DNA of 64,000 bases. Source: Candidatus Alcyoniella australis (GTDB lineage Bacteria > Lernaellota > Lernaellaia > JAVCCG01 > Alcyoniellaceae). Location: positions 31,978 through 95,977 of the forward strand of contig JAVCCG010000098.1 in NCBI GenBank assembly GCA_030765605.1, written 5' to 3'. Of this stretch, positions 9,291 to 48,818 are shown in pieces. How positions within the stretch are numbered: position 1 is the stretch's first letter; each line of letters starts with the position of its first letter. The notes under the pieces were generated by a model. It was given only the letters and a program-made list of their open reading frames with translations, made no database searches and had not been told where the DNA came from. Both the position numbers and the translations under genes were made by a program.

Positions 9291-9360
9291 GCGGCTTTGA
9301 GCCGTTGCAAAACTCGCGTATCTCTATGGTCGTTTACTAAAAATCCACTCCGCGTCGCGC
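9291..9360 (+). repeat. Dispersed intergenic repeat, copy 3 (forward)
   Basis: Hairpin GCGGCT-TTG-AGCCGt, then CAAAACTCGCGTA, CTATGGTCGTT and AATCCACTCCGCG. The order and spacing match the array unit at 57907-58310 closely. It lies in the upstream region of the M14 gene. Confidence 0.65.
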
Positions 9361-9389
9361 AGAGCATCATTGAACAATGACTACTGTCC

Positions 9390-9421
9390 GCTCGCGTGCT
9401 TTGCCGCAGCGCCAAGCTGCC
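9390..9421 (-). repeat. Dispersed intergenic repeat, partial copy 4 (reverse)
   Basis: On the minus strand: imperfect hairpin GGCAGCTTGGCGCTGC followed by GGCAAAGCACGCGAG, resembling the first half of the repeat unit. The second half is not recognisable. Confidence 0.4.
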
Positions 9422-9468
9422 TGATTGATAAATCATCATGAATAATCCGGACTGGGGTTTCAAGCGAG

Positions 9469-10425
9469 CTAATGCACCGTCTCGGTGCTCAGACTGCGCT
9501 CGAAGGCCAGGCCCACGCGGCGCGGTTCGCCCTCGTGCTCAAAGGTCAGCCGGACCTGGGTGGTCGATTCGATCGAGACCACAACTCCCTCGTGGCGGTC
9601 CAGGACCATCGTCCCGGCCAGGGAGCCGACTTCGACCTCGTACTTAACTCCGTGCAGGTCGTTGGCCGGAAACTCGAGTTCATCGATCAAGGGCGCGATA
9701 TCGGCGGAGAAGCTGATGATCGCCAGCGAGTCGTGTCGGCCCTCGAGCCGCTCGAGGGTATAGCGCGTGCGCAGCTCCAGATCGCCCAGCAGCGGATCGC
9801 TCCACGTGCGGTTCGCGTGCCAGCTGCGGCCGGGCGAGACCCGGCCCGCGGGAAGCGGCGGAAAGCGCAGATGCAGCAGCCGCAGCAGGAAGTCCGAGCG
9901 CAGCACATCGGCCAACCGCTTTGCCAGCTCGTCGGCCTGGGGCCCCTCGCCCAATGCCTGGGCAATGCTGCGGGCCGCCCCGTCGATCCCGTCGACCAGC
10001 TCGATTGAGCCGTCGTCGTTTAGGGCGATGGTGACCGGCCGCTGGAGCAGCATGGTCATCGGCGCGTAGGCCTCGCGCGCCAGGAGATCTTCGTCTTGAC
10101 TGTCGAAGCTGCGCCGCGGTCTGCTGGGCAGATCGTTTTCGCTGATGAACCGGCTACAGGTCAGACGCATCAGCCGCGGGCCGCGTTGCTCGGATTTGAG
10201 GTGCTCCAGCCGGTAGTAAAGCGTGTGGCTCTCGACGAACTGGTGGGGCACGCCCTGGATCGAGCCGACCCCGCTGATCCGCTCCTGGGCGCGGTATTCC
10301 AGCGGCCGTCCCGGGTCGGGATCATAGGTCAGCCGCACGCCCTGGGCGCAGCCGGGAATCAGCCAAGCCGCCCACAGCGCGGCGAGGACAATCGATCCCC
10401 ATCTGAAGCACGGTTTGCGTTTCAT
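9469..10425 (-). CDS. Lipoprotein of unknown function (DUF6263-like architecture)
   Basis: 318 aa with a lipoprotein signal peptide (hydrophobic stretch ending LIPGC, Cys at residue 26). The mature part is predicted mixed alpha/beta with no catalytic motif I recognise. Layout resembles the neighbour at 10489-11415: an early YRAQERI-like strand, a central helical part and a late segment in which a Gly-x-Met-Val-Leu-Asp 'background' strand precedes a Val/Ser-Ile strand. This suggests the two are distant paralogues. Similar envelope proteins are grouped as DUF6263, but that assignment is only by eye. No Shine-Dalgarno is obvious before the ATG. Confidence 0.6.
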   Translation of the reverse strand: MKRKPCFRWGSIVLAALWAAWLIPGCAQGVRLTYDPDPGRPLEYRAQERISGVGSIQGVPHQFVESHTLYYRLEHLKSEQRGPRLMRLTCSRFISENDLPSRPRRSFDSQDEDLLAREAYAPMTMLLQRPVTIALNDDGSIELVDGIDGAARSIAQALGEGPQADELAKRLADVLRSDFLLRLLHLRFPPLPAGRVSPGRSWHANRTWSDPLLGDLELRTRYTLERLEGRHDSLAIISFSADIAPLIDELEFPANDLHGVKYEVEVGSLAGTMVLDRHEGVVVSIESTTQVRLTFEHEGEPRRVGLAFERSLSTETVH

Positions 10426-40572: not shown

Positions 40573-41288
40573 TGGTGAACGCGCAGATCCGTGGATCACA
40601 GGGCGCGGGGCACACTGTTGATCGCGTGGTCCGGCCGGCCAACGGCCGGCGCGAGACCCTGCTGGTGCTGCTGGCCCTAGCTGCGATCATCGCGCTGATG
40701 CTGGTGCGCGCCTGCGCCTTCGGCGGCGAGCAACAACAAACCTACCTGCGCCCCTACCAGCAACTGGACAGTGTGCTGAGCAACCCCGAGCGTACGCTGT
40801 TCCAGAGCCTGCTGGCGAGCATGGGCGAGATCGAGGGCCTGCGCGAAGACGAGGGGCAGTGGCCTGAGGCAGCGCTGCTCGCCATGGATTCGATTCCGCC
40901 GTTCGATCCGCGCTTTTTGCCCTCGACGCTTCAGGGATACCTTTGGACCGACTACAACAACCAGTCGTGGGTCGACTACATCGGCACCCTTCCCGAGGCC
41001 GGCCAGGGCCGCACCTTTTTACTGCGGCTGATCGATCTGCACGCTGAATACCACCCGCACCCGCATCCGGGCATTGACTACGATCCGAACATGCGCGTCA
41101 GCTCGCAGATCTGGATTTACGACGAGCCCGACCGCTTCTATCCCGGCGAACGCCTGGCCGAGGCTGGATGGATGTGGGTCGTCACTCCCAACGACCGCTC
41201 GCTCAACGCCACAGAGGAGCAGGTCGAGCAGGCCAACCAGGTCTATCAACAGAACGATGAGAAAAACGAACAGGAGAATGGGCAATGA
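40572..41288 (+). CDS. Membrane-anchored periplasmic protein of metal locus (238 aa), unknown
   Basis: ATG overlaps the upstream stop (TGATG), and its own stop overlaps the ZnuA gene (ATGA). A basic N-terminus (RRETLLV) is followed by one membrane helix (about residues 30-50), so the rest faces the periplasm. The soluble part has a His-rich EYHPHPHPG segment (about residue 160) and ends in a Gln/Glu/Asn-rich tail. It recalls DUF6162-type proteins encoded near zinc ABC transporters, but I cannot confirm the family. His-rich segment plus context suggest metal binding. Confidence 0.6.
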   Translation: MVNAQIRGSQGAGHTVDRVVRPANGRRETLLVLLALAAIIALMLVRACAFGGEQQQTYLRPYQQLDSVLSNPERTLFQSLLASMGEIEGLREDEGQWPEAALLAMDSIPPFDPRFLPSTLQGYLWTDYNNQSWVDYIGTLPEAGQGRTFLLRLIDLHAEYHPHPHPGIDYDPNMRVSSQIWIYDEPDRFYPGERLAEAGWMWVVTPNDRSLNATEEQVEQANQVYQQNDEKNEQENGQ

Positions 41289-42211
41289 GACTGCGAACGT
41301 TCGTCGCATTGCTTGCCATGTTGCTGATCGCAACAGCCGCGCCCGCGGTTGCTGCCGACAAACTGATTATCGGCGTGGCGCTGCACCCCTACTACTCATG
41401 GGCGCTAAACATTGTCGGTGACCGCGCCGAGGTGCGCACGGTGATTCCACCGGACAGCGACCCGCACAGCTACCAACCGCGGGCCGAGGATCTGGCCAAC
41501 CTCTCCAACCTCGACGTGGTGATCTTCAACGGCCTGGGACACGACCAATACCTGGAACAGATGATCCAGGCCGCGGGGCGCACTGACATGCCGCTGATCC
41601 GACCCAACCAGGGGCTGCCGCTGATCCCGGTGTTCCGCGAGACCTACGAGCTGGTGGACGGCAAGCCGCAAATTCGTCAACACACGGCCTACAACAGCCA
41701 TTCGTACATCGCGATCCTTGGCGCGATCCAACAGATAAACACCATCGCCCGCGAGCTGGGAAACCTCGACCCGCCCAACGCCTCGTACTATCGCTCCAAC
41801 GCCCGGGCCTACAACCGCCGCCTGCGCAACATGCTGGGCAACGCCTTGGACAAGATCAACGAGATCGACGCCGCGGGGACGACCCTGGCCACGGTCCACG
41901 ACGGCTACGCCTACCTGTTCCAGGAGCTGGGACTGAATGTCTCGGCGGTAATCCAGCCGCGCCACGGCATCGAGCCCTCGGCGCGCCAACTGGCCGACAC
42001 GATCGAGCAGATTAAAAGCAAGGGCATCACCATCCTCTTTGCCGAGCTGGACTACGACAAGAAGTACGTGGATATAATCTTTCAGGAGACCGGCTGCCGA
42101 ATTTACCAGCTCAGCCACATCTCCCACGGCGAGTTCTCGCCCGAAAAGTTCGAGCGCGACATGCAGGCCAACCTCGATTCGATCATCAAGGCGCTAAGCG
42201 AGGCGCGTTGA
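41285..42211 (+). CDS. znuA: Zn/Mn-type ABC transporter substrate-binding protein (ZnuA/TroA family)
   Basis: 308 aa with a signal peptide (residues 1-23, AVAADK). Cluster A-I binding protein: GVALHPYYSWAL opening, first metal-ligand His in PPDSDPHSYQPRAEDL, second in YNSHSYIA, third in TVHDGYAYLFQELGL and a final SHGEFSP acidic/His region. The usual DPHxW segment around the second ligand is altered (NSHSY), and the His-rich loop of ZnuA proper is absent, so Mn, Fe or Ni cannot be excluded. Three bases before the ATPase gene. Confidence 0.85.
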   Translation: MRLRTFVALLAMLLIATAAPAVAADKLIIGVALHPYYSWALNIVGDRAEVRTVIPPDSDPHSYQPRAEDLANLSNLDVVIFNGLGHDQYLEQMIQAAGRTDMPLIRPNQGLPLIPVFRETYELVDGKPQIRQHTAYNSHSYIAILGAIQQINTIARELGNLDPPNASYYRSNARAYNRRLRNMLGNALDKINEIDAAGTTLATVHDGYAYLFQELGLNVSAVIQPRHGIEPSARQLADTIEQIKSKGITILFAELDYDKKYVDIIFQETGCRIYQLSHISHGEFSPEKFERDMQANLDSIIKALSEAR

Positions 42212-42214
42212 AAG

Positions 42215-42949
42215 ATGGCCGCGATTCTCGATATCCGTGACCTGAACGTCGAACTCGGCGGGCAAACAATTCTCGACCGGGTGAGCTTCAAGGTCGAGCG
42301 CAGCTCGATTCACGCGCTGATCGGCCCCAACGGCGCGGGCAAGACCACGGTGATCCGCAGCATCCTCGGCGGCATGCCGCACCGCGGTTCTATCGTTTTT
42401 CACAGCAACGATGGCGGCTGGATCGGTCACGTGCCGCAGTTGCTCGAGTTCGACCGCTCGCTGCCGATCACCGTGGCCGATTTCATCATGATCAGCCTAC
42501 GCCGCAAGCCGTGCATGATCTGCCGTCACAGTACGATGCGCATGCATGTGTCCCGGGTGCTCGAGCGCATGGAGTGCGCGCACCTAGCCGATCGTCTTCT
42601 CGGCGGACTATCCGGCGGCGAGCTGCGGCGGGTGCTGCTTGCCCAGGCGCTGGAACCGCTGCCCGAGATGCTGCTGCTCGACGAGCCGACGAGCAGCATC
42701 GACGAGCACGGCGCGCGGCTGCTCGAGAATCGGCTGGCACGGCTGTGTAGCGAGCAGGGTGTGACGATCCTGATGGTAGCCCACGATATCGCGCAAATTT
42801 TGCGCATCGCGGATCACGTAACCGCAATCAACCGCACGGTGACATACGACGGCGGACCCGAGCGGCTGCGCGATCCTCAGCACCTGGGCCTACTGTTCGG
42901 CATCGAGGGTCGGGCCAACGACGCGCCGGTCAAACGGGAACTGGATTGA
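42215..42949 (+). CDS. znuC: ABC transporter ATPase of metal uptake system
   Basis: 244 aa. Walker A GPNGAGKTTV (about 38-47), Q-loop HVPQLLEFDRSLPITVADFI, signature LSGGELRRVLLAQAL, Walker B MLLLDEPTSSID and switch His VAHD. Pairs with the following permease and the ZnuA-type protein. A C-x-x-C in RRKPCMICRHS in the helical domain is unusual for this family and could bind metal or be redox-sensitive. Stop overlaps the permease start (TGATG). Confidence 0.9.
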   Translation: MAAILDIRDLNVELGGQTILDRVSFKVERSSIHALIGPNGAGKTTVIRSILGGMPHRGSIVFHSNDGGWIGHVPQLLEFDRSLPITVADFIMISLRRKPCMICRHSTMRMHVSRVLERMECAHLADRLLGGLSGGELRRVLLAQALEPLPEMLLLDEPTSSIDEHGARLLENRLARLCSEQGVTILMVAHDIAQILRIADHVTAINRTVTYDGGPERLRDPQHLGLLFGIEGRANDAPVKRELD

Positions 42950-43842
42950 TGGACTGGTTCTACGAGTTGGTCGCCGGCTGGGCTAGGGAGGGATGGCTGC
43001 CCTCGACGTTCGAACACGCTTTCATGGTGCGCGGAATGCTCGCGGCACTGCTGATCGGCCCGCTGCTCGGCGGCATGGGCACGATGGTGGTAACCAAAAA
43101 ACTCTCGTTCTTCACCCAGACCGTGGGCAACGCCGCTCTGAGCGGGGTCGCCCTGGGTCTGCTGATCGGCGAATCTGTGGACGGCACCTACTTCGGCCTC
43201 TACGGTTTTTGCCTGGCCGTGGCGCTGCTGATGAATTATGTGCGCAACCGCACGCGCATCGCCGTGGACACCGTGATCGGCGTGGTGCTGGCCCAGGTGT
43301 TGGGCCTGGGTGTGGTCCTGCTGGTGCTGGTGACCAAACAGTTTAACATCCACCAAATCGAGGCAATCCTCTTTGGCAGCCTTATAACCCTACGCGACAT
43401 CGACCTGTTACTGCTGCTGATCGTCGGTGTGCTGGCAAGCGGCCTGGGGCTGCTGCTGTTCAACCGCACGATGCTGGTCAGCTTCAACCCGGTGCTGGCC
43501 AAGGCGCGCGGCCACAACCCGCTGCTGATCGATTACCTGTTCATCACCGCGCTCACCGCCGTGGTGGTCGCCAGCCTCAAATTGATCGGCGCACTGCTGG
43601 TGCTGGTGCTGATCGTTGTCCCGGCGGCCGGCGCGCAGAACGTGGCGCGCAACCTGCGCTCGTTCTTTTGGCTCAGCGTGGCGCTCTCCACGGTGAGCAC
43701 CGTGGCCGGGCTGCTGATCTCCAGCGCCTGGCCGGTTCCCACAGGCGCGGCGATCGTGCTGGTGGCCTCGCTGTTGTTCTACATGGCGTTGATCCTCAGG
43801 CCGCTGTTCGGGCGCTCGGGCATCGGGCAGGGACAGGCCTGA
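42949..43842 (+). CDS. znuB: ABC transporter permease of metal uptake system
   Basis: 297 aa from the ATG that overlaps the ATPase stop. About eight to nine membrane helices; the cytoplasmic coupling segment (GTMVVTKKLSFFTQTVGNAALSGVALG) and the ALKLIGALLVLVLIVVPAA-like late helix are those of ABC-3 family permeases (ZnuB, MntB, TroC). Completes a ZnuABC-type importer. Thirty bases before the NikK-like gene, so the two groups are likely cotranscribed. Confidence 0.9.
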   Translation: MDWFYELVAGWAREGWLPSTFEHAFMVRGMLAALLIGPLLGGMGTMVVTKKLSFFTQTVGNAALSGVALGLLIGESVDGTYFGLYGFCLAVALLMNYVRNRTRIAVDTVIGVVLAQVLGLGVVLLVLVTKQFNIHQIEAILFGSLITLRDIDLLLLLIVGVLASGLGLLLFNRTMLVSFNPVLAKARGHNPLLIDYLFITALTAVVVASLKLIGALLVLVLIVVPAAGAQNVARNLRSFFWLSVALSTVSTVAGLLISSAWPVPTGAAIVLVASLLFYMALILRPLFGRSGIGQGQA

Positions 43843-43871
43843 GCTGATAAGCATTGATATAGAAAGAGGAG

Positions 43872-44648
43872 ATGAAAATGAGCAAGCGAATGGCGATAGC
43901 GATGATGCTTGCGGCGGCCCTGCTGCTGCCGTTGAGCGCACTGGCACATTTCGCCGTGGTTCAACCCTCCGACGATATCGTCGCGGCCGGCGACTCCAAG
44001 ACGATCAAGGTCGATCTGCGCTTCGGCCACCCCTTTGAACAGGGGCTGATGAATATGGTCAAGCCCCAGCAGTTCGGCGTGCTGGCAGGCGGAGAGAAAC
44101 AGGACCTGCTGAGTTCGCTGCAACTGGTCAAGCAGGGCGATTTCAGCACCTGGAGCACCGAGTACCAGATCGGACGGCCCGGCGACTATGTGTTCTACCT
44201 CGAGCCCACCCCCTACTGGGAACCGGCTGAGGGCAAGCTGATCATCCACTACACCAAGGTGGTGGTTCAGGCCCTGGGCCTGGAGGAGGGCTGGGACGAG
44301 CTGCTGGGCTTTCCAATTGAGATCCGGCCGCTGACCAGGCCCTACGGCCTTTGGACAGGCAACGTGTTCTCCGGCCAGGTGCTGCTCGAGGGCAAGCCCG
44401 TGCCGTTCGCCGAGGTCGAGGTCTCCTACGACAACAAGGACAAGATCCCGTCCCCGGACGAGGTCTACTGCATCCAGGTGGTGATCGCCGACCAAAACGG
44501 CGTGTTCTCCTACGCCATGCCGCGAGCCGGTTGGTGGGGATTCGCCGCGCTGGAGGACGGGCCCGAGCAGCTGCTGGCGCCCGATGGCGAGAAACACCCG
44601 GTGGAAATCGGCGGCCTGATCTGGGTCAATACCGTCGATTTCAAGTAG
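43872..44648 (+). CDS. DUF4198 periplasmic protein (NikK-like)
   Basis: 258 aa preceded by AGAGGAG. Signal peptide ends LSALA, exposing a mature N-terminal His (HFAVVQPSDD), as is typical of DUF4198/NikK proteins in which the N-terminal His can bind metal. The family's FGHPFE motif (about residue 55) and PYWEPAEG segment are present, followed by an Ig-like EVEVSYDNKDK...GVFSYAMPRAGWW domain. These proteins accompany nickel/cobalt transporters as extracytoplasmic components. Here the only transporter nearby is the Znu-type ABC system, so the metal is uncertain. Confidence 0.8.
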   Translation: MKMSKRMAIAMMLAAALLLPLSALAHFAVVQPSDDIVAAGDSKTIKVDLRFGHPFEQGLMNMVKPQQFGVLAGGEKQDLLSSLQLVKQGDFSTWSTEYQIGRPGDYVFYLEPTPYWEPAEGKLIIHYTKVVVQALGLEEGWDELLGFPIEIRPLTRPYGLWTGNVFSGQVLLEGKPVPFAEVEVSYDNKDKIPSPDEVYCIQVVIADQNGVFSYAMPRAGWWGFAALEDGPEQLLAPDGEKHPVEIGGLIWVNTVDFK

Positions 44649-44656
44649 AGGTCAAG

Positions 44657-45025
44657 ATGAGAAACATAAAGCTGCTTTTAGTCGTATCGATGTTGGTCCT
44701 TGCATCCTCGGCCCTGGCCCACGGGGTCAGCCTCTGGGCCTATGTCGAGGACGGCACGGTGTTCATCGAGGCCTTCTTCTCCAACGGCAACAAGGTAATG
44801 AGCGGCCAGATTTTCGTGCTCGACTCGAGCGGCGAACAGATCCTCGCCGGCGAGACCGACAATCAGGGCAAGTTCAGCTTCAAGCCGCCGAAGATCGACG
44901 ATCTCAAAATCGTCCTGATCGCCGGAGAGGGACACAGCGCGGAATACCTGCTCAAGGCCGACGAGCTGCGCGGCGATACGCCGCAGCCAACTCCCACGCC
45001 CGCGGAGCAGCCAACGAAACAATAG
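44657..45025 (+). CDS. Small periplasmic NikL-like protein
   Basis: 122 aa, AGAGG before the ATG, nine bases after the NikK-like gene. Signal peptide ends SALA, again exposing His (HGVSLWAYVEDGTVFIEAFFSNG), the conserved NikL-type start. The body is one beta-sandwich (QIFVLDSSGEQILAGETDNQGKFSF) and the C-terminus is a Pro/Thr-rich linker (TPQPTPTPAEQP) with no membrane helix, although many NikL proteins end with one. Probably acts with the NikK-like protein in metal capture. Confidence 0.7.
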   Translation: MRNIKLLLVVSMLVLASSALAHGVSLWAYVEDGTVFIEAFFSNGNKVMSGQIFVLDSSGEQILAGETDNQGKFSFKPPKIDDLKIVLIAGEGHSAEYLLKADELRGDTPQPTPTPAEQPTKQ

Positions 45026-45082: not shown

Positions 45083-45112
45083 TTGACAATTGATACTGAG
45101 TTTCAATAAAAT
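45083..45112 (+). promoter_or_regulatory. Promoter of the fur-fur/feoA-feoAB operon
   Basis: Consensus -35 TTGACA (45083-45088) and -10 TAAAAT (45107-45112) separated by 18 bases, in an AT-rich patch between the NikL-like gene and the first fur. The -10 box lies inside the palindrome at 45099-45123, so a bound repressor would block RNA polymerase. Confidence 0.6.
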
Positions 45113-45131
45113 GAATTGAAACTTGGTTTCA
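45099..45131. promoter_or_regulatory. Overlapping palindromic operator, probable Fur-family site
   Basis: AGTTTCAAT (45099-45107) and its exact complement ATTGAAACT (45115-45123), 7-nt spacer, overlap the -10 box. A second palindrome, TGAAAC-TTG-GTTTCA (45117-45131), shares the right arm. Two overlapping dyads of this kind fit binding of one or two repressor dimers and probable autoregulation by the adjacent Fur. The sequence differs from the classical Fur box, so the metal sensed is open. Confidence 0.6.
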
Positions 45132-45167: not shown

Positions 45168-45620
45168 ATGAAGTCGCCGCTGGAACAGTTCAGAGAGTTC
45201 GCCGCTTGCGAAGGCCTGCGCCTGACCCGCTCGCGCGAGGACGTTGTTCGGGCGGCCTTCGCGCTGGACGACCATTTCAACACCGATGATTTATTGCGTG
45301 TGCTGCGTCGACGGCGCTTGCACGCCTCGCGGGTTACGGTCTACCGCACGCTGCCGCTGCTAATCCGCGCCGGGCTGATCCGCAAGGCCCTGCCCTGCGC
45401 GCAGAACGAGCAGCAGCTCTACGAACACGTTTGGGGCTTGCCGCACCACGATCACCTGGTGTGCGAGGTCTGCGGCCGGATCGTCGAGTTCGCGGACCAG
45501 CGCATCGAGCGCGCCCAGCGCCGGGTCGCCGAGGAATACGGCTTTGCACTGAATCGCCACACCCTGGAGCTGCGCGGCGTATGCGGCGATTGCAGCGCCA
45601 ATCCCGAGGTAGAGCAATAG
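45168..45620 (+). CDS. Fur-family metal-responsive repressor
   Basis: 150 aa from the ATG at 45168 (GAGG upstream; in-frame TTG earlier would read across the operator). Winged-helix N-domain with recognition helix ASRVTVYRTLPLL (53-65), then the metal-binding dimerisation domain: HHDHLVCEVCG (93-103) and GVCGDC (138-142), giving the structural zinc Cys pairs 99/102 and 139/142. Could be Fur, Zur or another branch. The clear operator just upstream and the Znu and Feo genes on both sides suggest control of this locus. Stop is immediately followed by the next ATG. Confidence 0.87.
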   Translation: MKSPLEQFREFAACEGLRLTRSREDVVRAAFALDDHFNTDDLLRVLRRRRLHASRVTVYRTLPLLIRAGLIRKALPCAQNEQQLYEHVWGLPHHDHLVCEVCGRIVEFADQRIERAQRRVAEEYGFALNRHTLELRGVCGDCSANPEVEQ

Positions 45621-46361
45621 ATGTACAGCATCGACGACGCAACCAACGCTTTCAAATCGTACCTGGCCGGCACGGGCAAGCCCTTCGGCCTTGACCGCGA
45701 GGCGGTGCTGCTGGCGGCCCTGGACACCCACGAGCACTTTACCCACGGCCGGCTTGTGGACCGACTGCGCGAGGCCAACCCCGAGATCATGCCCGATCTG
45801 GTGCAGATGGCTCTGGGCGAGATGGTGCGCGCGGGCTTAATTCGCAAGGTGTTTTTCGGCGAGGGACCTGTCTACTACGAACACGTCTACGGCCATTTGC
45901 ACCACGACCACTTGGTCTGCGTGCGCTGCGGAGAGCTGATCGAGTTCCGCTCTGACGTGATCGAGGCTGAGCAGCGCCGGATCGCCGAACAGCATGGGTT
46001 CAGGATTTTGCGTCACAGCCTGCAGATCATGGGCGTCTGCGAACGATGCAGCGCCGAGCCGCTGTCCCAGCTGCCGGAATTCGCAATCGAGGAGCAGCCG
46101 GACCCGGACCGCGTGCTGCCCTTGAGCCTGGTGCGCGACGGCCTACGCGCCCAGGTGGTGCAGATCGAGGGCGGCAGCAACCTCAAGCAGCGACTGACCT
46201 CCCTGGGTTTGACCCCCGGCGACGAGATCGAGGTCTGCCACAACACCTTTGCCGGACCGTTCGTGATCAAGGTCAAGGGCTCGCGCATCGCCCTGGGTCG
46301 CGGGATGGTCGATCGAATCCAGGTACGGCGCATCCTCGAACCTGCAGAGGACGACGCATGA
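45621..46361 (+). CDS. Fur-like protein fused to a FeoA domain, recognition helix degenerate
   Basis: 246 aa beginning at the base after the previous stop. Residues 1-145 align with Fur: HEHFTHGRLVDRLRE, LIRKVFFGEG, HHDHLVCVRCG (Cys100/103) and GVCERC (Cys140/143). Where Fur has the VTVYRTL DNA-recognition helix, this protein has IMPDLVQMALGEMV, so normal DNA reading is doubtful. After a Glu/Pro-rich linker (150-164), residues 166-238 are a FeoA SH3-like domain (GSNLKQRLTSLGLTPGDEIEV, GSRIALGRGMVDRIQV). It may sense metal and act on FeoB, or form mixed dimers with the upstream Fur. Overlaps feoA by ATGA. Confidence 0.85.
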   Translation: MYSIDDATNAFKSYLAGTGKPFGLDREAVLLAALDTHEHFTHGRLVDRLREANPEIMPDLVQMALGEMVRAGLIRKVFFGEGPVYYEHVYGHLHHDHLVCVRCGELIEFRSDVIEAEQRRIAEQHGFRILRHSLQIMGVCERCSAEPLSQLPEFAIEEQPDPDRVLPLSLVRDGLRAQVVQIEGGSNLKQRLTSLGLTPGDEIEVCHNTFAGPFVIKVKGSRIALGRGMVDRIQVRRILEPAEDDA

Positions 46362-46633
46362 GTCCCGGGCATCGCCACGGACACGGTCACGACCACGGGC
46401 CGACGCTGCGCGACTGTCGCGAGGGCGACGTGGCGACCGTGCTTCGCGTGCACGGCTCCGGCGCGTTCCGCCGGCGGCTGATCGAGATGGGCTTTACACC
46501 CGGCAGCGTGGTGCGCGTGGAGAAGTACGCCCCGCTCAAGGACCCGGTGGAGTTCGTGCTCAAGGGCTACCACGTCAGCCTGCGCCGCGAGGAGGCCGAC
46601 CTAGTCCAGGTCGAGAAGCCAACCGAAGATTGA
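46358..46633 (+). CDS. feoA: FeoA with His-rich N-terminus
   Basis: 91 aa. Opens with a His-rich stretch (HRHGHGHDHG, residues 5-14), a likely metal-binding addition, then a standard FeoA/SH3 domain (CREGDVATVLRVHGSGAFRRRLIEMGFTPG with VSLRREEADLVQV at the end). FeoA is a cytoplasmic partner of FeoB in ferrous iron uptake. ATG overlaps the Fur-FeoA stop; feoB starts 7 bases downstream. Confidence 0.88.
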   Translation: MSPGHRHGHGHDHGPTLRDCREGDVATVLRVHGSGAFRRRLIEMGFTPGSVVRVEKYAPLKDPVEFVLKGYHVSLRREEADLVQVEKPTED

Positions 46634-46640
46634 GACGACA

Positions 46641-48818
46641 GTGAAACGCATCACTATCGCCCTGGCGGGTAATCCAAACTCGGGCAAGACCACGATCTTC
46701 AACGCGCTGACCGGCGCGCGGCAGAAGGTCGGCAACTGGGGCGGCGTGACCGTCGAGCGCAAGCAGGGACACCTGGAGTTCGAGGGGTACGAGGTCACGG
46801 TTGTCGATCTGCCGGGCACATACTCGCTCACCGCTTACTCGATCGAGGAGCTGGTCGCCCGCAACTACATCGTGGACGAGCGACCCGACGTGGTGGTGGA
46901 CATCGTCGACGCGGGCAATCTGGAGCGCAACCTGTACCTGACCACCCAGCTTGTGGAGCTGAGCTGCCCGCTGGTGATCGCGCTGAACATGATGGACGTG
47001 GCCGAGCAAAAGGGGCTGAAGATCGCCATCGGTCGGCTCAGCGAGATCTTCGGCGCGCCGCTGGTGCCCACGGTCGGCTCACGGGAAAAGGGACTGGAAA
47101 GCCTGCTGCGAGCCTGCATCGAAGTCGTCGAGGGGCGCAACGACGCAATACGCCCAGTGCGCATCCCCTACGGCTCCGAGGTCGAGGGTCACCTGGCCGA
47201 GCTGACACAGATGTTGCCGACCAGCCAAATCGAGCGCTGCTACGCTGCGGAGCGCTGGATGGCGATCAAACTGCTCGAGAACGACCGCCGGGCGATCGAG
47301 AACATCGCCGAGGCCGAAAATAGCGAGAAGCTGCTGCTGACGATTGAGCGCCTGCGCGAGCATCTGGTCTCGCTTTACGGCGACGACCCGGAATTGCTGT
47401 TCGCCGAACGACGCTACGGCTTCATCGCCGGCGCGCTTAAGGAGACGCTGACCGAAACGCTGATCGACCGCGTCTCGGTCTCCGAGCAGATCGACCGCGT
47501 GCTGACCAACAGGCTGTTCGGCCTGCCGCTGTTCGCGCTGATGGTCTGGGCGATGTTCCAGTTCACGTTCACGGTCGGCGCCTACCCGATGGACTGGCTG
47601 GACATCGGCGTTTCCTGGCTCGGCCGAAGCGTGGGCGCGCTGCTTCCCGCGGGACTGCTGCGCGGGCTGATCGTCGAGGGCGTGATCGGCGGCGTGGGCT
47701 CGGTACTGGTGTTCATGCCCAACATCCTGCTGCTGTTTTTGTGCATCAGCTTCCTCGAGGACTCGGGCTACATGGCGCGCGCCGCTTTTTTGATGGACCG
47801 CGTGATGCACCTGCTGGGTCTGCACGGCAAGAGTTTTATCCCGTTGCTGATGGGCTTTGGCTGCACGGTTCCGGCGGTGATGGCCACGCGGACTCTGGAA
47901 AGCGAACGCGACCGGATTCTGACGATCATGATCAATCCGCTGATGTCGTGCTCTGCGCGGCTGCCGGTCTACGTGCTGCTCGCCGGCGCGTTCTTCCCCC
48001 CGGCGCGTGCCGGGACCGTGATCTTCTCGATCTATTTGCTTGGCGCGCTGCTGGCGGTGCTGGTCGGCAGGCTGTTCTCCAAAACAATCCTGCGCGGTCA
48101 GGCCGCGCCGTTCGTGATGGAGCTGCCGCCCTACCGCCTGCCCACGTTCAAAACCACGGCGATTCACATGTGGGAGCGCTCCAAGATCTTCGTGCGCAAG
48201 ATGGGCGGCGTGATCCTTGTGGGCAGCATTGTGATTTGGTTTCTTGGCGCGTTCCCGGTGCACGGACCGCGGCACCAAGAGCTGACCGGGCGGATCGATG
48301 CCCACGGCCTGAGCTACGGGCTGTACCAGGCCGGTGCCAACTCCAAACAGCGGTTGACCATCGAGCTTTACCACACGGAGCACGTGGCCCAATTACAGCA
48401 AACACTGGAGGCCGATCGCATCGCTGAGAGCTACATCGGCCGCATCGGCCGGACCATCGAGCCGATCTTCGCGCCGCTTGGACTGGATTGGCGCGCGGCC
48501 GTGGCCGTGCTCACCGGGTTCGTGGCCAAGGAGATTGTGGTCTCGACCCTGGGCGTGCTGATGCAGGTCGACGACGAGCAGCAGCCGGGCAACGCGGGGT
48601 TGATCGTCGCCCTGCGCAATACCGGCATGACCCCGCTGATCGCCTACGCTTTTATGGCGTTCATTTTGATCTATACGCCGTGCCTGGCCACGGTGGCCGC
48701 GATCCGCCGCGAGACCAACTCGCGCAAGTGGGCGGCGTTCAGCGTGGCCTACTCGTTCGTGCTGGCCTGGGTCGTGGCCTTTTCCATCAAGTCGGTCGGC
48801 GGGTTGCTCGGATTTTAG
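46641..48818 (+). CDS. feoB: Ferrous iron transporter FeoB
   Basis: 725 aa, GTG start. N-terminal G domain with G1 GNPNSGKTT (10-18), G3 DLPG and G4 NMMD, a helical GDI-like segment, then the membrane part with Gate motifs GFGCTVPAVMATRTL and NPLMSCSARLPVYVL. A soluble insertion of about 60 residues (HGPRHQELTGR... to SYIGRIGR) precedes the last helices. FeoB moves Fe2+ across the inner membrane under anoxic conditions. Third Feo-related gene in the operon after the Fur-FeoA fusion and FeoA. Confidence 0.95.
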   Translation: MKRITIALAGNPNSGKTTIFNALTGARQKVGNWGGVTVERKQGHLEFEGYEVTVVDLPGTYSLTAYSIEELVARNYIVDERPDVVVDIVDAGNLERNLYLTTQLVELSCPLVIALNMMDVAEQKGLKIAIGRLSEIFGAPLVPTVGSREKGLESLLRACIEVVEGRNDAIRPVRIPYGSEVEGHLAELTQMLPTSQIERCYAAERWMAIKLLENDRRAIENIAEAENSEKLLLTIERLREHLVSLYGDDPELLFAERRYGFIAGALKETLTETLIDRVSVSEQIDRVLTNRLFGLPLFALMVWAMFQFTFTVGAYPMDWLDIGVSWLGRSVGALLPAGLLRGLIVEGVIGGVGSVLVFMPNILLLFLCISFLEDSGYMARAAFLMDRVMHLLGLHGKSFIPLLMGFGCTVPAVMATRTLESERDRILTIMINPLMSCSARLPVYVLLAGAFFPPARAGTVIFSIYLLGALLAVLVGRLFSKTILRGQAAPFVMELPPYRLPTFKTTAIHMWERSKIFVRKMGGVILVGSIVIWFLGAFPVHGPRHQELTGRIDAHGLSYGLYQAGANSKQRLTIELYHTEHVAQLQQTLEADRIAESYIGRIGRTIEPIFAPLGLDWRAAVAVLTGFVAKEIVVSTLGVLMQVDDEQQPGNAGLIVALRNTGMTPLIAYAFMAFILIYTPCLATVAAIRRETNSRKWAAFSVAYSFVLAWVVAFSIKSVGGLLGF

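Follow-up and report, generated by a model that had tools for sequence, protein, structure and literature searches.

Fur proteins are known to regulate transcription in response to metals, and the fold of FeoC is a winged helix. How Fur depends on single residues for reading DNA has been worked out in M. gryphiswaldense Fur (MgFur), in which the exchange R57A leaves no detectable DNA binding, Y56A leaves very weak binding and K15A makes binding more than ten times weaker (Deng et al., PMC4506495). FeoA contacts the G domain of FeoB and stabilises its GTP-bound form (PMC8980893), while FeoC controls FeoB post-translationally (PMC10710835). Stand-alone, tandem and FeoA-FeoB forms are the architectures covered by a survey of FeoA, in which DtxR-type fusions and other non-Feo ones figure solely as having been removed from the data; the FeoA-NFeoB protein of B. 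fragilis shows that FeoA can regulate the G domain of FeoB (PMC8980893). On the side of the regulators, PgMntR is of the DtxR/MntR type and carries twin FeoA domains (PMC4805248). No description of a Fur-FeoA protein was found in the literature searched, where one of three text matches to 'Fur-feoA' was the paper on the Fur-feoAB1 operator complex, and this supports the initial annotation of the present locus, which called the architecture unusual. In domain databases Fur-FeoA may stand under automatic annotation.

The protein described here is encoded in a 64 kb stretch of DNA (the window) and resembles each of these systems in part. Like MgFur (4RAZ/4RB3) and C. jejuni Fur (6D57), it has the two-domain fold and all metal ligands, the Zn(Cys)4 cysteines among them, but it is without the Y56/R57/T54/K15/R20 DNA-contact set and carries an added C-terminal FeoA domain. 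It shares with the FeoA-bearing DtxR/MntR-type regulators the order of a winged helix, a metal-binding dimer domain and a C-terminal FeoA domain, yet it belongs to the Fur superfamily, its DNA-reading residues are lost, and a Pfam profile search found no match to the DtxR domains PF01325 and PF02742. Its FeoA domain also differs in subtype from that of the DtxR-FeoA proteins seen in FCPU426-like genomes. In B. fragilis FeoA-NFeoB, FeoA is likewise covalently joined to another part of the iron system, with the difference that it is fused to FeoB itself and without a metal sensor (PMC8980893). The protein may further be likened to FeoC, a small cytosolic protein acting on FeoB after translation (PMC10710835), although FeoC carries an Fe-S cluster where Fur has its metal sites, lacks a FeoA domain and is, by the family matches, no Fur homologue; a profile search with the FeoC family model gave no match for the fusion protein.

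The fusion protein and its operon

The gene at 45621-46361 (plus strand, 246 aa) has a start that abuts the stop of fur1 and a stop that overlaps the start of feoA. Pfam finds a FUR match (PF01475) at residues 26-136 of its product (E 2.6e-18, 66.7 bits against a cut-off of 23.1) and a FeoA match (PF04023) at residues 167-236 (E 3.4e-19), both in one frame without interruption, and by this evidence from the sequence the gene encodes one intact Fur+FeoA protein. The profile matches, the single frame and the adjacent genes thereby confirm that a Fur-FeoA fusion lies beside a normal Fur, FeoA and FeoB, as first proposed. The conserved Fur metal ligand H39 is found in the N-terminal domain, and the Fur hinge and metal-binding/dimerisation domain (residues 84-146; 45870..46058, plus strand) holds E87, H94, H95, D96, H97, C100, C103, E108, E115, H132, C140 and C143, of which C100, C103, C140 and C143 are the four cysteines of the protein. 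Each of these ligands is present in all eight fusions of this kind that were found, so that the four-cysteine metal/dimer domain noted initially is indeed kept. A variable, low-confidence linker (about residues 147-165; 46059..46115, plus strand) leads to the FeoA domain (46119..46328, plus strand), which is of the 'GP' FeoA subtype. This domain matches 3e19 with an rmsd of 1.0 and 44% identity over 75 columns, and the SH3-like fold and the profile match together bear out the FeoA assignment.

Transcription of the fur1-furfeoA-feoA-feoB operon would start from a predicted sigma-70 promoter, TTGACA-18-TAAAAT (45083..45112, plus strand), which is a consensus match only, at 11 of 12 positions. 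A Fur-type 7-1-7 inverted repeat, TGATACTGAGTTTCA, lies in the promoter spacer (45091..45105, plus strand) and a second, TGAAACTTGGTTTCA, just past the -10 element (45117..45131, plus strand). With up to three mismatches allowed, these two are the sole matches to the 7-1-7 pattern in the 64 kb; as the pattern was derived from the promoter site itself, and 18 of 100 shuffles gave at least two matches, the pair of boxes is to be read as anatomy and not as proof. The first gene encodes Fur1 (45168..45620, plus strand), a canonical Fur with an intact recognition helix (SRVTVYRTLPLL). Downstream of the fusion follow a stand-alone FeoA of the other, 'DP', subtype (46358..46633, plus strand) and FeoB, which has a GTG start (46641..48818, plus strand). 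The genome (98% complete, 157 contigs) has no Fur or FeoA match outside this operon, which holds two of each.

The stand-alone FeoA has a His-rich N-terminus (MSPGHRHGHGHDHG, 46358-46426), absent from the FeoA proteins of the related genomes G003 and G005, which is possibly a metal-binding tail. Upstream, at 41285-45025, the feo operon is adjoined by a cluster of metal-uptake genes comprising a ZnuABC-like zinc/manganese ABC transporter (41285-43842), a DUF4198 protein (43872-44648) and a NikL-type nickel/cobalt ECF subunit (44657-45025; NCBIfam NF058648, just above the cut-off).

The recognition helix and the DNA-contact residues

The initial annotation held that the recognition helix of the fusion was missing. 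The AlphaFold2 model of the fusion retains a well-predicted winged-helix domain in which residues 58-70 form a helix, and the model of an FCPU426 relative likewise has a winged helix, with its helix at residues 53-65; the models are built on few sequences, with pTM of 0.45 and 0.49 and an unreliable relative placement of the domains. The helix is therefore not missing, and the view of an absent helix has to give way to that of a helix which is present without its contact residues, the loss of which stands. Its codons (residues 58-70, PDLVQMALGEMVR) lie at 45792..45830 on the plus strand, and the canonical Fur segment 'TVYRTL' reads 'LVQMAL' at residues 60-65. The positions of MgFur Tyr56 and Arg57 are taken by Gln62 and Met63, and across the contact set of the recognition helix and L1 loop the window fusion has Q62, M63 and P21, with only R26 kept.

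The same loss is seen when the eight fusions are set against 65 other Furs collected in the analysis, with MgFur as the reference for DNA-contact positions. Arginine at the R57 position is invariant among the comparison Furs (65/65) and found in one of the eight fusions, and the R20 position gives the same counts. Tyrosine or phenylalanine at the Y56 position drops from 63/65 to 0/8, threonine or serine at the T54 position from 65/65 to 3/8, and lysine or arginine at the K15 position from 62/65 to 2/8. As judged from these alignments, the fusion clade has kept the metal switch of Fur but not the residues that Fur uses to read DNA; operator binding would be expected to be lost in vitro. Some affinity for DNA may remain because the wing has an invariant R75-K76 and the helices of the FCPU426-type proteins keep some basic residues.

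Distribution and origin of the fusions

Eight degenerate Fur-FeoA fusions were found, and they come from two bacterial phyla. In the window's phylum three of seven genomes carry one (G000, G003, G005), in an FCPU426-like phylum five of 45 (G386, G387, G403, G404, G405). At a strict cut-off none was seen in the rest of a broad sample of 386 genomes, nor was any found, at E 1e-48, in 396 genomes sampled from the phylum of G358, which has the nearest canonical Fur, a placement that is itself weak (support 85/61). In the Fur tree all eight Fur domains fall into a single clade (99/93). Their FeoA domains also cluster together (92/72), inside the '...GP...AIG...' subtype, which elsewhere is encoded by a separate gene adjoining a canonical Fur. 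A plausible history would be that such a fur-feoA gene pair fused and that the DNA-contact residues were lost afterwards. The fusion is not a recent duplicate of Fur1, as the two fall in different Fur clades, though they are 41% identical.

Comparison of the close relatives G404 and G405 gives dN/dS values of 0.26 (N-terminal DNA-binding domain), 0.13 (dimerisation domain), 0.20 (FeoA) and 0.91 (linker), while the value of about 1.1 for the recognition helix alone comes from 13 codons and has little meaning. These ratios indicate that all folded domains are maintained in this pair, the degenerate DNA-binding domain included and the linker exempt, and such purifying selection argues that the fusion proteins are functional.

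Two further Fur-FeoA fusions, in G048 (L074:2304-2984) and G235 (L075:6338-7057), have the same domain order as the window protein and an intact recognition helix. Each is the sole Fur of its genome and lies immediately before feoB, its FeoA domain being of the 'DP' subtype ('APLGDP...SLR'). Upstream of them are Fur boxes with 0 and 1 mismatch in a 9-1-9 pattern (shuffle p 0.004 and 0.026, respectively). Both fall elsewhere in the Fur tree than the degenerate clade, and the Fur tree and FeoA tree rule out a shared origin. Therefore, the Fur-FeoA fusion must have arisen at least three times.

Gene neighbourhoods

In the window's phylum, the order Fur1, Fur-FeoA, FeoA and FeoB is found in all three genomes with the fusion. 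G005 and G003 have, between fur1 and fur-feoA, a small zinc-ribbon-like ORF with two CxxC pairs (L073:8378-8629 and, on the minus strand, L072 about 9319-9630), which is not found in the window. Another genome of the phylum, G001, has fur-feoA-feoB genes and no fusion protein; its FeoB open frame (L078:7475-10126, 883 aa) is longer than usual and probably extended to an upstream start. A search for 9-1-9 palindromes before the fur genes of G003, G005 and G001 gave nothing significant, and shorter GAGACT-type repeats overlap the promoter in G003 and G005.

In the five FCPU426-like genomes, the fusion gene lies away from feoB in a two-component/sigma-factor locus, with the gene of a CheY-like receiver before it and, where the contig extends, a methyltransferase-like gene after it. 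The conserved set of this locus consists of a receiver/histidine kinase, a sigma-54 activator, a sigma-70-family factor and the CheY-like receiver. The block (L131, L132, L133, L076, L077) also encodes a small protein whose C-terminus looks by eye like that of the anti-sigma factor FlgM and which has no Pfam match. Palindromes before these loci were no better than in shuffles. In G386, G387 and G403, feoB adjoins the gene of a DtxR-FeoA regulator. No other Fur homologue was found in G386, G404 and G405, three of the five FCPU426-like genomes with the fusion, and no FeoB match in G405; these are draft genomes, which makes the absences provisional.

Possible functions of the fusion

The reading that we favour, while giving it slightly less than an even chance, is that the protein derives from Fur, senses metal as a dimer, no longer recognises Fur boxes in the canonical way and signals its metal state to a partner protein. 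The signal would be passed on by the C-terminal FeoA (SH3-like) domain, perhaps together with the repurposed winged helix. When iron is plentiful, the normal Fur1 would probably repress the window operon, and the fusion would therefore be produced, along with FeoA and FeoB, under iron shortage. As iron refills, metal on the Fur domain would change the contact of the FeoA domain with the G domain of FeoB (or with FeoA), and the altered contact would tune transport after translation, as proposed for FeoA and FeoC. We infer that the protein dimerises, which metal it senses and in which direction it acts, and FeoB would be its likeliest target in the window genome. This choice is based on the known contact of FeoA with the G domain of FeoB, on the control of FeoB by FeoC and on the five clamp positions of B. 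fragilis FeoA, all hydrophobic in the window's fused FeoA, one of them being proline in the G003 and G005 proteins.

A sensor acting directly on FeoB had been suggested from the start. In the window, as in two relatives, the gene shares an operon with feoB, so that such an action is possible in this lineage; as a general mechanism, dedication to FeoB is weakened because in the second phylum the gene is found apart from feoB, in a two-component/sigma-factor locus, and G405 gave no FeoB match. Besides these five genomes and the missing match, several points count against the favoured reading: the fused FeoA ('GP') differs in subtype from the stand-alone FeoA ('DP') of its own genome, FeoB need not require a fused FeoA because a stand-alone one is already present, and some DNA affinity may remain, as set out above. 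B. fragilis FeoA (BfFeoA) aligns via 'APLKDP...SLRR' like the stand-alone FeoA and unlike the fused domain. The change of context speaks for a partner that is not fixed, and in the second phylum the fusion probably serves a different one, given the locus in which its gene lies. With less confidence than the favoured reading, it may be proposed that this two-phylum Fur clade no longer consists of transcription factors and that its FeoA/SH3 signalling gates FeoB in one phylum and feeds a two-component/sigma-factor cascade in the other. As far as the sequences go, a metal-dependent protein-protein switch via the FeoA/SH3 domain is the simplest reading of the clade.

Next in standing, though unlikely, comes a neofunctionalised transcription factor, in which the winged helix would bind operators other than Fur boxes and FeoA would act like the SH3 domain of DtxR-type repressors. 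The winged helix is predicted to be intact in both lineages, the wing R75-K76 is invariant, and the FCPU426-type proteins have helices with basic residues, a DNA-binding domain with a net charge of at least +4 in three of the five, and genes embedded among transcriptional regulators in genomes that also encode DtxR-FeoA proteins, DNA-binding regulators by homology. Against this, the helices of the eight differ at nearly every outward position, the L1-loop minor-groove and backbone residues are lost too, no significant palindrome precedes the FCPU426-type loci, and the proteins of the window's lineage carry a net charge of -2 to -3 on the DNA-binding domain and of -1 to -4 on the helix. DNA binding of altered specificity is a minority option, mainly for the FCPU426-like members with their basic helix residues, and the invariant R75-K76 of the wing speaks for it as well.

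It is less probable still that the protein is a dominant-negative or modulating partner of Fur1, forming mixed dimers through the conserved dimerisation domain and so weakening or re-tuning operator binding. Such mixed dimers, also considered in the initial annotation, are possible in the window's lineage, where in 3/3 fusion genomes the fusion gene stands next to fur1 and in the same direction, between it and feoA-feoB; they are weakened as a general mechanism, and unlikely to be the general function, because no other Fur was found in three relatives. This explanation further leaves the FeoA domain unaccounted for and faces the placement of Fur1 and the fusion in different clades, with no recent duplication between them.

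Hardly more than a slim chance is given to a plain FeoA helper of FeoB with the Fur part as a structural or iron-storing remnant. The operon with feoAB in three genomes fits such a helper, as does the comparison of the window's fused FeoA with the BfFeoA clamp, in which all five positions are hydrophobic by sequence (L, L, L, I, L), but the G003 and G005 fusions have Pro at clamp position F23, the regulatory metal ligands retained in all eight proteins are not ones that a structural remnant would have to keep, and the genome already encodes a stand-alone FeoA. A frameshift, mis-assembly or pseudogene in decay, at which the draft state of the genome (157 contigs) and the degenerate recognition helix could hint, is ruled out for practical purposes by the same architecture and the same loss in seven other genomes, giving eight unbroken relatives in separate genomes of two phyla, and by the purifying selection on the G404/G405 pair.

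Implications for Fur and FeoA

A conserved clade in which the metal switch is retained while the residues for reading DNA are gone would be a natural experiment in the re-wiring of metalloregulators, and it could link iron sensing straight to the importer FeoB. With at least three origins of Fur-FeoA, and with FeoA found on DtxR-type regulators as well, FeoA seems to have been joined to metalloregulators time and again, and this recurrent pairing makes the poorly understood role of FeoA easier to test.
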